Source of the DNA: Acinetobacter defluvii
GTDB lineage: Bacteria > Pseudomonadota > Gammaproteobacteria > Pseudomonadales > Moraxellaceae
DNA length: 64,000 nucleotides
Direction: 5' to 3'
NCBI RefSeq assembly: GCF_001704615.3
Contig: NZ_CP029397.2
Location: 682,001-746,000, forward strand
A model generated the notes under the pieces. The model worked only from the letters and a program-made list of their open reading frames with translations. It was not told the DNA's origin and searched no databases. This document shows, piece after piece, positions 31,236-39,179 of this stretch. Positions within the stretch are counted from its first letter, which is position 1; every line of letters starts with the position of its first letter. The position numbers and the translations under genes were made by a program.

Positions 31236-32246
31236 TCAGTGATAACCATGTAACTGACGATACAAACCAGGCGTTACACCTGTCCATTTTTTAAATGCAC
31301 GATGGAAAGTTGAGGTTTCACTAAAACCGACTTGTTGGGCAACATCTTCAAGTGTGAGATCTGGGTTTAGAAGCAAGTGAATTGCGGCATCACGACGTAA
31401 GGCATCTTTTACACCCTGATAACTTTTACCTTCAGCAGCCAAACGACGGCGCAATGTTTGTGGTGATAAATACAACATCGAGGCAACGTCATTTAATGTT
31501 GGCATTTCCTCACCAATTTGACTTTTCAGCACATCGCGAATACGCGAAGTTAAAGAGTTGGTATTTTTGAATTTTACCAAAAGCTGTGCAGGCGCTGCTT
31601 TTAAAAACTCTTCCAAACTCGCTTCATTCTGGCGAATGGGTAGGTCTAAATAATCTGCTGCAAAGGTAATTTCAGTGCGTGGCATATCAAACTGCATCAC
31701 AGGTGCAAAGAAGAGTGCGTCATACTCATCTGCATGATTTGGACGTGGATAACCAAAATGCACACGCTCTAGCGGAATACGACGCTCAATCAGCCATGAT
31801 GCTAAACCATGCCAAATCATTAACATACTTTCAGTAATGAAGTGATCAGGATCCATTGTTTTGGGAATGAGAGGCACTAAGCGTGCTTCATGCTTATCAC
31901 GTTCAACAGCAACCGACCATTCATCACCAAATAGTTTATAAAATTGGGAAGAAAGCTCTAAAGCATCCCCTAATGTCTTGGCATGGATAATCAACTGACA
32001 CATGATGGCAAAAGATCCCAAACGTCTTGGCTGAATGTCAAAACCGACATGCTCGTCTTGGGTGACCATCCACAACATTTTCACAAAACGTGTGTATTGC
32101 TCAGGTGAAATCCTCGCTTTGGGTTGGCGCAATAGTTCTGCCTCAATCCCGACATGCGAAAGCAAAGTTTCGACATCCATGCCTAGGCGTTTGACACCTG
32201 TAAGGGCTGCATTCACGAAATGGATACTGATCGTATCACGACTCAT
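31236..32246 (-). CDS. AraC-family transcriptional regulator (OruR/ArgR-like type)
   Basis: A 336-aa regulator from the ATG at 32246, behind AGAAGGA. The N-terminal arabinose-binding-like domain (PF12625 type) covers about 200 residues. The C-terminal double helix-turn-helix contains 'LYLSPQTLRRRLAAEGKSY' and 'VAQQVGFSETSTFHRAFKKWTG'. Regulators of this type often control fatty-acid, aromatic or amine catabolism. It is divergent from a CoA-transferase gene whose start lies 197 bp away, which makes that gene its most likely target, along with its own gene. Confidence 0.88.
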   Translation of the reverse strand: MSRDTISIHFVNAALTGVKRLGMDVETLLSHVGIEAELLRQPKARISPEQYTRFVKMLWMVTQDEHVGFDIQPRRLGSFAIMCQLIIHAKTLGDALELSSQFYKLFGDEWSVAVERDKHEARLVPLIPKTMDPDHFITESMLMIWHGLASWLIERRIPLERVHFGYPRPNHADEYDALFFAPVMQFDMPRTEITFAADYLDLPIRQNEASLEEFLKAAPAQLLVKFKNTNSLTSRIRDVLKSQIGEEMPTLNDVASMLYLSPQTLRRRLAAEGKSYQGVKDALRRDAAIHLLLNPDLTLEDVAQQVGFSETSTFHRAFKKWTGVTPGLYRQLHGYH

Positions 32247-32442
32247 GTTAAATCCTTCTGACTCTTTGATGTTCACTAGCGATTGACCTAATACACTCTA
32301 AAAAATGTTGGATTGGCGATTTACAACAATGCGAATCACCTTTTTACATCTTAAATTGCCGAAATGATCAAGGTAAATGGCTGAACATGACATTGTTATG
32401 TTAGTTTTATATTTCTAATATGGACTAAAAATCAACATAAGA

Positions 32443-33902: not shown

Positions 33903-34898
33903 ATGGATTTAATACAAACGAATGGATTACCTCGTTATGGACGCTTTACGACATTACCCAGTGCTATCAGTACAGATCGTTATATCTATAAAACGCCCTA
34001 TGGTAAAACCTTAAAAGGTTGGCGTAAGAGTTTAAAATATAAGAAATTTAAATTTTGTGGTATTCAGCATGAACATTATAGTATTGGTTTTGCCATTGTT
34101 GATATTGGTTGGGTTGGGCATGCTTTTATTTATATCTATGATCATGAAAGTGGAGATGTGTTGGAGTGGAATTCAAATAATATTTTAGCCCATCATACTT
34201 TTGTAGATGAGCAACCTCTCTATAATCAAAGCCGTTTTAACAAATCACCTTTTCAAATCGAAATGCAACATGCCAATGGCGTGCGCTATATCAGCATTAC
34301 CAAACATGGTGATGAAAAACTGAAAGCTCGTATTTTCTGTGCAGCAACAAACCCATTAAGTTTATGCAGTCCGACAGGGATTAATGGCTGGACTTATACT
34401 CAGAAATTGACAACTTTAGGTGTCGAAGGCTTTTTCGTTAATAAGAAAAATGAAACTATACATTTTAATGAAAAAAGTTTCGCTTCTTTAGATGATACTT
34501 GTGGATTTTTACGTCCTGAAACAGCATGGTTTTGGTTGTCTTGTAATTTTTGGGATGAGCAGGACAACCGTATAGGATTAAATCTAGCTTCTGGTGTAAA
34601 TGAAAGTTTTGGTAACGAAAACTGTCTCTGGATAAATGGTATTTTATACCCAATCAGTGATGTATTGTTTGAAAAATTAACTGATACTACATGGTCAATT
34701 CATTCACTTGATCAAAAATTAAATTTAACTGTAGAAACGGGCTGGCGTCGTTATGAAAACCTGAATTTACGCTTAATCGGTAGTCAGTTTAGTCAGTGGC
34801 AATCTAAAATCAGTGGTACAGTACAAGCTGAATCGGGAGAGTTAGTCACGTTAAATCAAGAATATGGCTTACTCGAACAGCATTACGCAAAATGGTAA
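33903..34898 (+). CDS. DUF2804 family protein
   Basis: A 331-aa protein with the DUF2804 layout: an N-terminal 'LPRYGRF', 'YGKTLKGWRKSLKYKKF' and 'GFAIVDIGWVGHAFIYIYD', with several Trp-rich beta strands. No signal peptide. This is a large beta-sandwich by appearance, similar to lipocalin-like carotenoid/lipid-binding folds (CrtC-like). The family is uncharacterised. Its position between a CoA-transferase and the PF10118 array hints at lipid metabolism, but this is only context. Confidence 0.75.
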   Translation: MDLIQTNGLPRYGRFTTLPSAISTDRYIYKTPYGKTLKGWRKSLKYKKFKFCGIQHEHYSIGFAIVDIGWVGHAFIYIYDHESGDVLEWNSNNILAHHTFVDEQPLYNQSRFNKSPFQIEMQHANGVRYISITKHGDEKLKARIFCAATNPLSLCSPTGINGWTYTQKLTTLGVEGFFVNKKNETIHFNEKSFASLDDTCGFLRPETAWFWLSCNFWDEQDNRIGLNLASGVNESFGNENCLWINGILYPISDVLFEKLTDTTWSIHSLDQKLNLTVETGWRRYENLNLRLIGSQFSQWQSKISGTVQAESGELVTLNQEYGLLEQHYAKW

Positions 34899-34927: not shown

Positions 34928-35803
34928 TTATAGGGCAGCATTCCAAAATGCATCGCCTGCTGCGATTGGGTCACCTGTTTCATTCAAGGTATCAACGAAA
35001 GTTTGATATTGTTGAATAATTTTATGTTGGCTTGGATGAAAGTCTGGTCTGTACCAGTCTAAGTACTCATGCTTCATTTTCGATAAAATACCTTGACGAC
35101 CAATAAACCACGGTAAACCTTTTGCCATCATGCTTAAGCGTTCTCGACGACTAAAACCATCGCATTTGAGTAAACCGTTGGTACGTTGCATGGTAAAACC
35201 AAACATCATTGCAGTAACCAAGATCAATGCCGTATAACGCACGGCATTCGGTGTATTGCCAATTTTACTCATCACATCAAAGGCGACATCACGATGTTCC
35301 ATTTCTTCAATCGAATGCCAAGCAAATAAAGCACGGATATAAGGATGTGCTTCTGCCATGGTTGATTTTTCAGTAAAAAAAGCATCTGCCATGAGTGCTG
35401 TTAAATGCTCACAGGCTGCAGTAATGGCGATATTTACTTGCTTTGGATAACGTTTCAGCGCATGTCCAAAACGACGATTAACATGACCAATAAATTTTTG
35501 AACAGGCATGCCTTGATTGATCAAAATTTTATTCATATTGTTATGTGCAATACCATGCTGTGCTTCTTGCATGATAAAGTTAGCAACACGTTGCTTTAGG
35601 TCGGAATCTTGAATTTGATCTTTAAATAAACGTACACATTGAATGAAATAACGTTCACCATCAGGAAAAGTCAAACTCAAGGCATCAAAAACACGGGTAC
35701 GAAAACGGTCATCGCCAAACCAAAAACGTGGAATTTCATCGAGTTTAAAATCGAGGTGCGTGCGAACAATCGGGTCGACTTGATATTGGACTAATGCATT
35801 CAT
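34928..35803 (-). CDS. PF10118 'metal-dependent hydrolase', copy 1 of an array
   Basis: A 291-aa cytosolic helical protein, the last gene of a tandem array. Candidate metal ligands are E50, E80 with H83 (QEAQH), E132, and E167 with H170 (EMEH). This spacing matches the E / ExxH / E / ExxH pattern of ferritin-like di-iron proteins. The family is named a predicted hydrolase, but an oxygen-activating di-iron role fits the residues better (inference). The C-terminus ends 'DFHPSQHKIIQQYQ...GDPIAAGDAFWNAAL'. It is the most diverged of the three intact copies. Confidence 0.82.
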   Translation of the reverse strand: MNALVQYQVDPIVRTHLDFKLDEIPRFWFGDDRFRTRVFDALSLTFPDGERYFIQCVRLFKDQIQDSDLKQRVANFIMQEAQHGIAHNNMNKILINQGMPVQKFIGHVNRRFGHALKRYPKQVNIAITAACEHLTALMADAFFTEKSTMAEAHPYIRALFAWHSIEEMEHRDVAFDVMSKIGNTPNAVRYTALILVTAMMFGFTMQRTNGLLKCDGFSRRERLSMMAKGLPWFIGRQGILSKMKHEYLDWYRPDFHPSQHKIIQQYQTFVDTLNETGDPIAAGDAFWNAAL

Positions 35804-35943
35804 TTTATTTTACTTCACATTGTCAAAAAACTTTTTGGCTCAGGCAATTATCGCAAAAAAGTAGAAAATATCCGTTGTCTTGTCATGCCAATTTAAAGGT
35901 AAAAGGTGACACATTTAGTCAGAATTGAATTAAAACAAGTTTT

Positions 35944-35974
35944 AAAACAGCACTGCCGTCAGTGCTGTTTTTTT
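35944..35974. terminator. Hairpin terminator inside the hydrolase array
   Basis: A perfect 12-bp stem (35944-35955 with 35960-35971) with a 4-nt loop, between copies 1 and 2. It would stop reverse-strand transcription after copy 2, so copy 1 may have its own promoter. Confidence 0.8.
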
Positions 35975-35993
35975 AATAGTTTGATTCACCACA

Positions 35994-36869
35994 CTACAAC
36001 GCTGCTTGCCAAAATGCCTCACCTGCAGCAATCGGATCATTGGTTTTGGCGAGTGTGTCAACCCAAGTTTGGTATTGACGAATAATAGGATGCTGACTTG
36101 GATGGAAATCTTTTTTATACCAGTCCATATAAGGTTTTTGCATCATGGAAAGTTTCCCTTTTTTTCCAAAAAACCAAGGTAAACCTTGCGCTGCCATTTT
36201 GGCACGCTGAAATGCTGAAAAACCATCATATTTCAACATGACGTTGGCACGATAAAAAGTAAATCCAAACATTTGCAAAGTAATAAAAGCTAAGGCGAAT
36301 TTACGTAGGGTTTCAGACACTTCACCCACGTGTTGCATGACATCATAAGCCACATCACGATGTTCCATTTCTTCAATTGCGTGCCACGCAAATAAGGCAC
36401 GTGCATACGGGTGAACATCTGCGAGAGTTTCTTTTTTACTATAAAAAGTTTCAGCCATCAGTGCAGTTAAGTGCTCGGCTGCTGCGGTCATCGCAATATT
36501 ATATTGCTTTGAACGATGCTTGAGTACGTATTGTAAATGTTGATCCAAAAAAGCAATAAACTGATCGACAGGCATGCCTTGCTTTTTCATTTCCTCATTC
36601 ATTTTGTCATGGGCAATGCCGTGTTGTGCTTCTTGTTTAATAAAGTCCGTGACTTTTTGTGCTAATTCAGGATCACTAATTTTATTACGTAAGGCACGCA
36701 CACTTTGAATGAAGTAACGTTCACCAATTGGAAAAGTTAAACTTAAAGCATCAAACATGCGTGTCTTAAATGGGTCTCCACCAAACCAAAAACGTGGAAT
36801 CTCATCAATTTTAAAGTCTAAATTACTACGTACAACAGGATCAACTTGGTGCTTGATATATGCATTCAT
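35994..36869 (-). CDS. PF10118 'metal-dependent hydrolase', copy 2
   Basis: A 291-aa paralogue of its neighbours with the same candidate ligands (E50, QEAQH, AEHLTALM, EEMEHR). It is closest to copy 3 ('MNAY.KHQVDPVVR', 'AHDKMNEEM.KQGMPVDQFI', 'YSKKETLAD.HPY'). It follows copy 3 with a 59-bp gap, probably on the same transcript. The substrate is unknown. Confidence 0.82.
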   Translation of the reverse strand: MNAYIKHQVDPVVRSNLDFKIDEIPRFWFGGDPFKTRMFDALSLTFPIGERYFIQSVRALRNKISDPELAQKVTDFIKQEAQHGIAHDKMNEEMKKQGMPVDQFIAFLDQHLQYVLKHRSKQYNIAMTAAAEHLTALMAETFYSKKETLADVHPYARALFAWHAIEEMEHRDVAYDVMQHVGEVSETLRKFALAFITLQMFGFTFYRANVMLKYDGFSAFQRAKMAAQGLPWFFGKKGKLSMMQKPYMDWYKKDFHPSQHPIIRQYQTWVDTLAKTNDPIAAGEAFWQAAL

Positions 36870-36928
36870 GATTATTTTTCTCGCAAAATAGGAAACACTT
36901 TATTTCCTTCTGTTTAAAATAAGGACTA

Positions 36929-37804
36929 TTATTCAGCTGCTTGCCAAAAAGCTTCTCCAGCAGCAATTGGATCATTGGTTTCGGCTAAAGTATCTACCCA
37001 AACTTGGTATTGGCGAATAATCGGATGTTGGCTTGGATGAAAGTCTGGCTTGTACCAGTCTAAATATTGACGTTTCATTCGACTCATGACGCCTCGTCGA
37101 CCGAAGAACCAAGGCAAGCCGCGATAAGCCAATTTCAAACGTTCAAGACGGCTAAAACCATCATGACTGAGCATGATGTTGGCGCGGTATGAAGTAAAAC
37201 CAAACATAGCGACTGTGGTCAGTGCAAGGGTAAACTTTCTTAGATACTCAGGTACTTCACCGACTTGTTGCATCACATCAAAGGCGACATCACGATGTTC
37301 CATTTCTTCAATCGAATGCCAAGCAAATAAAGCACGTACATAAGGATGTGCGTCAGCCAATGTTTCTTTTTTGCTATAAAAGGTTTCTGCCATCAATGCT
37401 GTGAGATGTTCTGCTGCTGCGGTCATGGCAATGTTGTATTGTGGTGAACGATTTTTCAGTTCTGATTTAAACAAACGCATTAAAAAGTTGATGAATTGGT
37501 CAACAGGCATGCCTTGTTTACGCATTTCTTCATTCATTTTGTCATGTGCAATGCCATGTTGCGCTTCTTGGCGAATAAAATCTGCAACACGTCGCTGCAA
37601 GTCAGGATCAGTAATTTTGTCACGAAACAAACGGACACACTCAATAAAGTAACGCTCACCATCAGGGAAAGTCAGGCTGAGTGCATCGAACATGCGTGTT
37701 TTAAAGGGATCGCCACCAAACCAAAAACGTGGAACTTCATCAAGCTTAAAGTTCAGTTTGGTACGAACAACAGGATCAACTTGATGTTTTACATAAGCAT
37801 TCAT
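36929..37804 (-). CDS. PF10118 'metal-dependent hydrolase', copy 3
   Basis: The ATG at 37804 is chosen because AGGTGA stands 5 nt upstream; a GTG three codons earlier lies within that ribosome-binding site. This start gives exactly 291 aa, like the other copies. Candidate ligands are conserved (GER, QEAQHGIAH, AEHLTALMAE, HSIEEMEHRDVAFD). The downstream order on the reverse strand is copy 3, copy 2, terminator, copy 1. Confidence 0.83.
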   Translation of the reverse strand: MNAYVKHQVDPVVRTKLNFKLDEVPRFWFGGDPFKTRMFDALSLTFPDGERYFIECVRLFRDKITDPDLQRRVADFIRQEAQHGIAHDKMNEEMRKQGMPVDQFINFLMRLFKSELKNRSPQYNIAMTAAAEHLTALMAETFYSKKETLADAHPYVRALFAWHSIEEMEHRDVAFDVMQQVGEVPEYLRKFTLALTTVAMFGFTSYRANIMLSHDGFSRLERLKLAYRGLPWFFGRRGVMSRMKRQYLDWYKPDFHPSQHPIIRQYQVWVDTLAETNDPIAAGEAFWQAAE

Positions 37805-37825
37805 TGAATTCACCTATAAAATTTT

Positions 37826-38017
37826 CTATTCATTTGGATAGGCTGCTTGCCAAAAAGCATTGCCTGCTGCGATAGGATCTGGGGTTTGTTGTAACACATC
37901 GAGCCAAGTTTGATATTGGCGAATAATTGGATGTTGACTAGGGTGGAAGTCATGTAATTTAAACTCTAAATTTGGACATACAACAGGTGTCACTTGAAAT
38001 TTGACTAAACTGTTCAT
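37826..38017 (-). pseudogene. Gutted copy 4 of the PF10118 array
   Basis: A 63-codon frame. The first 21 residues match the N-terminus of the intact copies ('MNSLVKFQVTPVVCPNLEFKL'-like). It then jumps straight to the C-terminal 'DFHPSQHPIIRQYQTW...DPIAAGNAFWQAA'. About 230 codons are missing in frame, including every candidate metal ligand. It is the first gene after the shared regulatory region, so it is probably still transcribed. It is either a dead remnant or a minimal peptide of unknown use. Confidence 0.8.
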
Positions 38018-38077: not shown

Positions 38078-38106
38078 TTGACAGTTGTTGCCATTTTTTA
38101 TACATT
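38078..38106 (+). promoter_or_regulatory. Predicted sigma-70 promoter of the second AraC gene
   Basis: A perfect -35 (TTGACA, 38078-38083), 17-bp spacer and -10 TACATT (38101-38106), about 40 nt before the ATG at 38148. Confidence 0.5.
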
Positions 38107-38147
38107 TTACGACAAGTGACAATTTTTATTTTCAAAATGAGTTTGCC

Positions 38148-39179
38148 ATGGAACATCAATTAAAAATATCAAATGGCTATTTTCAACTCTTAAAAGTTTT
38201 TTTAAAGGAACAACATGTTGATCTAGCTGAGTTAGCTTTGAATGACGAACAACGCGTAGAATTAGAAAAAACGTTAGGTGCAGCGATTGACCAACAAAGC
38301 AGTTATGATTTTTTTATGGAGGTTGTTACTGCAATCCATCTTCGTATCGACTGTCCAGATCTTGCTTTTGCACTAGCGAAATGTATTACACCTGCAAACT
38401 TTGGGCTTTTAGGCTATATGGCATCTCGAAGTGAAAGTTTGGCACAGGCATTAGAATACGTTGTGCGGTTTAGTCCATTGGTGGTTGCTGGATTAAACGT
38501 GACGTATATGCGTTATGAAATCATCGATAACACGATTCGTCTTTTTTGTCCCTTGGGCGCAGATAAATATATTTTTCTACATGAAGTGACTTTTGCTGCA
38601 ATGATTTTTTTAGCAAAGCAATTCGTTGGCTCGCAGCACTTCCCCTTAATTCAAATGAGTTTTGTCAATGCGCCAACCATGCCTTTATATTTATATCAGC
38701 AGTTTTATCAATGTATTATAAAGTTTGAACAGCCAATGTATGAAATCATCATTTCTATAGACGCTTTACAAATGAAACATGAACAAGCTGATCCAAACTT
38801 GATTCAGCTTTTAGTCAAGCAGGCGGAAGAAAAGCTTGCACACACATCGCAACACACAACAGTTGTGCAACAAATTCGATTTATTGTGGCTGAGTATTTA
38901 AAGCTAGAACAACAAGCCCCAAAAATTGAAGATATTGCTCAAGAACTCTTTGTTTCTGGACGAACATTGCAGCGTCAGTTAAAGCAATATGACACATCGT
39001 TTAAGCAAATTTTGGAAGAGGAGCGTATGCAGCGTTGTGAAACGCTATTGATGCAAGATAAGGATTTGACAGATATAGCCTTACAACTTGGCTATAGCGA
39101 TCAGTCCGCTTTGGCACGTGCTTATAAAGCCTTTAGTGGGCAAACTTTGTTGCAAAAGAAACAACAGTTAAAAGAGTAA
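38148..39179 (+). CDS. AraC-family transcriptional regulator, divergent from the array
   Basis: A 343-aa regulator from the ATG at 38148; a longer frame from 38085 would include the predicted -10 region. The N-terminal arabinose-binding-like domain contains 'LAFALAKCITPANFGLLGYMASRSESLAQALEYVVRF'-type sequence. The C-terminal HTH is 'IAQELFVSGRTLQRQLKQYDTSF' and 'IALQLGYSDQSALARAYKAFSG'. It is transcribed away from the PF10118 array, with 130 bp between starts. So it most likely senses a small ligand and controls that array. Confidence 0.87.
   Translation: MEHQLKISNGYFQLLKVFLKEQHVDLAELALNDEQRVELEKTLGAAIDQQSSYDFFMEVVTAIHLRIDCPDLAFALAKCITPANFGLLGYMASRSESLAQALEYVVRFSPLVVAGLNVTYMRYEIIDNTIRLFCPLGADKYIFLHEVTFAAMIFLAKQFVGSQHFPLIQMSFVNAPTMPLYLYQQFYQCIIKFEQPMYEIIISIDALQMKHEQADPNLIQLLVKQAEEKLAHTSQHTTVVQQIRFIVAEYLKLEQQAPKIEDIAQELFVSGRTLQRQLKQYDTSFKQILEEERMQRCETLLMQDKDLTDIALQLGYSDQSALARAYKAFSGQTLLQKKQQLKE

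Follow-up and report, generated by a model that had tools for sequence, protein, structure and literature searches.

Tandem PF10118 genes of Acinetobacter defluvii encode probable di-iron oxygenases resembling AurF and CmlI

We analysed a window of 64,000 nucleotides from Acinetobacter defluvii (contig NZ_CP029397.2, positions 682,001 to 746,000), which contains an array of three intact genes (copies 1 to 3, hereafter c1, c2 and c3) of the protein family PF10118. PF10118 proteins, including c1–c3, are probably non-haem di-iron oxygenases resembling AurF and CmlI, and would most likely hydroxylate a hydrophobic compound. The evidence for this reading is a pattern of residues, the invariance of these residues, a predicted fold and gene linkage. 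From this evidence we infer the presence of iron, the activation of O2, the class of substrate, the order of the steps, and the roles of the neighbouring AraC-type regulator and DUF2804 protein.

Conservation of the candidate ligands

The initial annotation of the window had proposed metal ligands at E50, E80xxH83, E132 and E167xxH170 in the three intact copies, and every one of these residues was found at its position in c1, c2 and c3. A seventh candidate ligand, H163, is likewise present in all three and had been overlooked. In an alignment of 34 sequences gathered with a profile hidden Markov model (HMM), whose members other than c1 are 20–77% identical to c1, the invariant residues were P47, E50, E80, H83, H87, E132, H133, H163, E166, E167, H170 and D176. 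The seven candidate ligands were also unchanged throughout 161 distinct PF10118 domains, matches spanning <150 profile positions having been excluded from the counts.

Ninety-two of the 161 domains came from loci retrieved by a peptide-pattern search with [WM]H[AS]xEEx[EG]H[KRC], which kept the best 80 out of 587 confirmed relatives. Since this pattern builds in H163, E166, E167 and H170, these domains say nothing about the conservation of the four. The remaining 69 domains were found by profile HMM or tblastn, and each of the seven sites was conserved in 69/69. Exactly ten residues were invariant among them, all Glu or His (E50, E80, H83, H87, E132, H133, H163, E166, E167 and H170), at a median pairwise identity of 29% (sample of 1500 pairs); gathering with a family HMM favours members with conserved motifs, and the invariance is possibly somewhat overstated. 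The check proposed in the initial annotation, for free variation of E50, H83, E132 or H170 in the family, thus found none. Glu, Asp and His together account for 48 of the 291 residues of c1. Judged from the sequences, the ligand pattern exceeds chance expectation. A resemblance to 'YFIEC' near E55, seen in c1 only, was dropped because this position varies in the family alignment.

Predicted fold and relation to AurF

In the sequence and the AlphaFold2 model of c1, the E / ExxH / E / ExxH order falls on four helices, and the predicted fold matches known ferritin-like di-iron carboxylate proteins, in agreement with the class first suggested for the array. When the c1 model was compared with known structures by Foldseek, the top match was CmlI. 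R2lox and ribonucleotide reductase (RNR) R2 were tied with it, and on fold alone R2, R2lox and aldehyde-deformylating oxygenase (ADO) were tied or close. All but three of the 50 Foldseek rows listed were di-metal oxidases or oxygenases; the exceptions were TenA/THI-4 entries (4lqx, listed twice, and 1rtw), and some TenA proteins are hydrolases.

The extra histidine H163 makes AurF/CmlI the nearest class, in place of the MiaE or desaturase relatives proposed initially. R2lox, RNR R2, methane monooxygenase hydroxylase and ADO are not known to have a His at the fourth position ahead of the last Glu. PF10118 shares with AurF, CmlI and DnfA (PF11583; PDB 3CHH, 5HYG) the seven-ligand set E, ExxH, E, HxxxExxH with identical spacing; a report on DnfA gives its ligands as E88, E123, H126, E182, H209, E213 and H216 and states that AurF and CmlI have the identical set. 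At the position of H87 these two also have a His, but none at that of H133. H133 and E166 are invariant in PF10118, which further differs from these N-oxygenases in its gene neighbours and in an AurF score below the cut-off. Among 18 proteins of the sampled genomes that match the Pfam AurF model, the extra His was present in 7 and absent from 11.

A sequence search of solved structures returned no convincing relative (best E 0.29 with c1 and 0.14 with the 34-sequence profile); a link came only from the fold comparison and the Pfam AurF model (PF11583). The latter matched c1–c3 with E 3.6e-5 to 1e-4 and 22.0 to 23.5 bits, below its cut-off of 29.6 bits; these matches are weak yet significant library-wide. 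An alignment by hhalign against a close AurF set gave a local E of 4.6e-4 and a probability of 33%, with the first Glu outside the alignment, while controls gave E 0.7 (reversed) and 0.63 (DUF2804). The probability was 2.7% against a 4-sequence AurF set, and global alignment by hhalign did not succeed with the close AurF set and was of poor quality with the wide one. In the printed alignments E80, H83, E132, H163, E167 and H170 fall on corresponding AurF-type residues; the equivalence of E50 to the first Glu was assigned by invariance and helix order only. PF10118 thus appears to be a separate and remote branch that has a site of the AurF type.

The array and its neighbours

The features of the locus are listed in Table 1. 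All three copies pass the Pfam cut-off for PF10118 (Metal_hydrol) of 33.2 bits, with 240.5 to 256.2 bits and E 3e-71 to 4.6e-76, and no named NCBIfam model was found for any of them. The c1 protein shares 98% identity with one recorded from A. defluvii. The open reading frame (ORF) of c1 as called by the program begins earlier, at GTG 37813.

Table 1. Features of the PF10118 locus in the window
Feature	Position	Strand	Evidence
DUF2804 (PF10974) gene, running towards the array; CrtC/AttH-like fold predicted for its product	33903..34898	+	
PF10118 copy 3 (c3), 291 aa from ATG	34928..35803	-	ORF call, Pfam match
PF10118 copy 2 (c2), 291 aa from ATG	35994..36869	-	ORF call, Pfam match
PF10118 copy 1 (c1), 291 aa from ATG	36929..37804	-	ORF call, Pfam match, AlphaFold2 model
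H163–H170 codons of c1 (H163, E167, H170 candidate ligands; E166 invariant)	37295..37318	-	
E132 codon of c1	37409..37411	-	computed from residue numbering
E80–H83 codons of c1	37556..37567	-	computed from residue numbering
E50 codon of c1	37655..37657	-	computed from residue numbering
Relic fourth PF10118 copy, 63-aa ORF lacking all seven ligand positions	37826..38017	-	
Divergent AraC-type regulator, Arabinose_bd sensor domain, ORF from TTG	38085..39179	+	

The relic copy lies upstream of c1 and is an internal deletion that joins about residues 1–23 to about residues 254–290. Its frame is the first past the divergent promoter region, with the start at position 38017. A search of the Acinetobacter piscicola locus and ten further Moraxellaceae loci did not find such a fusion. 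At the equivalent place A. piscicola has an array of three PF10118 copies; copies 2 and 3 of that array pair with c2 and c3 in the tree, at support 100/98 and 100/100, and c1 received no definite placement. Since A. piscicola holds a corresponding array with copies 2 and 3 pairing, the array predates A. defluvii. The remaining Acinetobacter loci of this group that we fetched have a single PF10118 copy at that place.

The divergent AraC gene had been noted initially as part of the context, and a portion of the family keeps its linkage to PF10118. The divergent neighbour of PF10118 in P. aeruginosa is annotated oruR, a regulator of ornithine utilisation. The DUF2804 protein had no sequence match to any solved chain; its predicted fold is CrtC/AttH-like, which likens it to CrtC carotenoid hydratase, kievitone hydratase, AttH and 25-phosphosteroid lyase. 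CrtC hydratases have catalytic His, Trp, Tyr and Asp residues. The A. baumannii orthologue is flanked by a DUF2804 gene and not by a CoA-transferase or thiolase gene; for this reason the CoA-transferase of the initial context, and a thiolase, were set aside as partners (only that locus was compared). Another AraC regulator of the window, at 31236–32276 (-), also has an Arabinose_bd domain and resembles GliR (186 bits against a cut-off of 570). The known GliR regulon of P. aeruginosa includes a DUF2804 gene.

Gene neighbourhoods across the family

Of the 8 actinobacterial loci fetched, 5 have a PDR/VanB-type reductase gene immediately downstream of PF10118 on the same strand, and in Rhodococcus fascians the two frames overlap. 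The Dietzia reductase combines an NAD-binding with a 2Fe-2S domain; the NCBIfam model that it matches best, at a score far below the cut-off, is PaaE (phenylacetyl-CoA epoxidase reductase). No PDR/VanB-type reductase adjoins the Acinetobacter copies. The source genome has 11 PF10118 genes in all. One paralogue stands in a run of an epimerase/3-beta-hydroxysteroid dehydrogenase-like short-chain dehydrogenase/reductase (SDR), PF10118, an alpha/beta hydrolase and a flavin-containing monooxygenase (FMO); another is followed by SDR and FMO genes; further paralogues adjoin housekeeping genes.

To compare neighbours with more distant genes, we used 77 of 118 loci, left after dropping centres >=70% identical, with controls 5–8 genes away in the same loci. 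SDR genes were enriched near PF10118 (14 vs 3 genes, p 0.014), and the excess of FMO was suggestive (9 vs 2, p 0.069). The reference proteins were themselves drawn from PF10118 neighbourhoods among these loci, which inflates the numbers of nearby SDR, FMO, hydrolase and reductase genes. Neither alpha/beta hydrolases (4 near, 2 far) nor, over all loci, PDR/VanB reductases (3 near, 2 far) were enriched; acyl-CoA ligase and acyl-CoA dehydrogenase were not enriched either. A Pfam scan free of this bias, covering 118 immediate neighbours of 120–560 aa and 108 of 144 control genes, found adh_short in 7/118 neighbours and 3/108 controls, and FMO-like domains in 4/118 neighbours and at most 1/108 controls. 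Wax-ester synthase was uninformative as a partner because it is nearly universal (59/60 genomes). The co-occurrence count of 38/52 is a lower bound (at least 38), and its p ignores relatedness.

Several other settings were observed. One paralogue of the source genome has a hemerythrin-domain gene on one side and a GTPase gene on the other (locus L145, 7552–10116), and in A. baumannii two tandem PF10118 genes follow rpsL-rpsG-fusA-tuf, a housekeeping setting (L172, 5462–8849). The Acinetobacter plasmid pTol5 (L165, 4653–11550) carries AraC, ferredoxin, P450, FAD oxidoreductase, an insertion sequence and PF10118 between Tn3-type transposases, and many plasmids of Acinetobacter have PF10118 genes nearly identical to this one. 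A plasmid of Mycobacterium intracellulare carries PF10118 and an R2-like ligand-binding oxidase gene no more than 7 kb apart (L170, 7974–15217).

Discussion

If PF10118 proteins are oxygenases of this type, then two irons would be held between four helices by E50, E80, H83, E132, H163, E167 and H170. The reduced site would take up O2 to form a peroxo di-iron species, which would oxidise an organic substrate, most likely a hydrophobic one (fatty, isoprenoid or steroid-like), by hydroxylation. An NAD(P)H-dependent reductase would supply the electrons; its gene adjoins PF10118 in several actinobacteria and in Acinetobacter would presumably lie at another site in the genome. The divergent AraC regulator may sense the substrate or product and turn the array on, and the DUF2804 protein may act on the oxidised position by adding or removing water or some other leaving group. 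At other loci SDR, FMO and hydrolase genes could take the alcohol on to ketone, ester and acid.

A more far-reaching proposal, which we put forward as tentative, is that AraC, the divergent PF10118 genes and DUF2804 form an undescribed two-enzyme module of Moraxellaceae for hydrophobic compounds, within a family that would be a large, unrecognised radiation of C-H oxygenases. Here a di-iron oxygenase of a new class, with the seven AurF-type ligands and invariant H87, H133 and E166, would hydroxylate an unactivated carbon, and the CrtC-like enzyme would then dehydrate, hydrate or eliminate at the hydroxylated position. Other loci would feed SDR, Baeyer-Villiger (FMO) and esterase steps, amounting to subterminal oxidation of hydrocarbons, terpenoids or steroids.

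The ligand set and the best fold match are also what would be expected of di-iron N-oxygenases like AurF, CmlI, AzoC or DnfA, which would oxidise an amine, hydroxylamine or amino-acid derivative and not a lipid C-H bond; the oruR annotation in P. aeruginosa points the same way. However, the sequence relation to AurF is remote, H133 is absent from AurF and CmlI, and many neighbours are SDR, FMO, P450 or CrtC-like genes and not amine genes, so that we regard this alternative as unlikely. Also unlikely, in our judgement, is a ferritin-like di-metal protein that is no small-substrate oxygenase, such as a peroxidase, a ferroxidase, an R2lox-like oxidase or an iron-handling protein. The tie of R2lox and RNR R2 with CmlI speaks for it, and H163 and the likeness to AurF do not alone show a reaction. 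However, the extra His sets PF10118 apart from the 11 of 18 AurF-model matches that lack it, and up to 15 paralogues per genome with reductase or redox-enzyme neighbours better suit substrate-specific enzymes.

The family (COG3687) is named 'Predicted metal-dependent hydrolase'. That its members are hydrolases with a catalytic zinc or iron site, as this name in the Pfam and NCBI records implies, is highly improbable. Besides the name, the one point in favour is that a published network treats PF10118 as a 'protease' group. The ligand set and fold fit oxygen-activating di-iron proteins, as the initial doubt about the label had it; a 2Fe-2S reductase partner is unexpected for a hydrolase; and the TenA/THI-4 rows were the sole departure from di-metal oxidases and oxygenases among the 50 rows listed in the fold comparison. 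The hydrolase name is without support in any search result here. No paper characterising PF10118 was found in openly licensed PubMed Central (PMC) full text, outside which lie most subscription papers and preprints. The sole paper there with the term PF10118 assigns it to a protease group in a network (PMC8960859). The initial description of the system as undescribed thus holds for openly licensed PMC papers, but the Pfam AurF model already overlaps the family: many of the 120 homologues listed bear both PF10118 and newer PF11583.15 labels.

Sampling found PF10118 in 29 of 200 genomes of the phylum and in 49 of 60 of the genus, where one genome had up to 15 copies among the matches listed. If these proteins are di-iron oxygenases, then a common protein family bears the wrong name, one that has steered at least one published screen in which PF10118 was counted as a protease group. 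Many genomes would thereby gain a set of uncharacterised oxidation enzymes.
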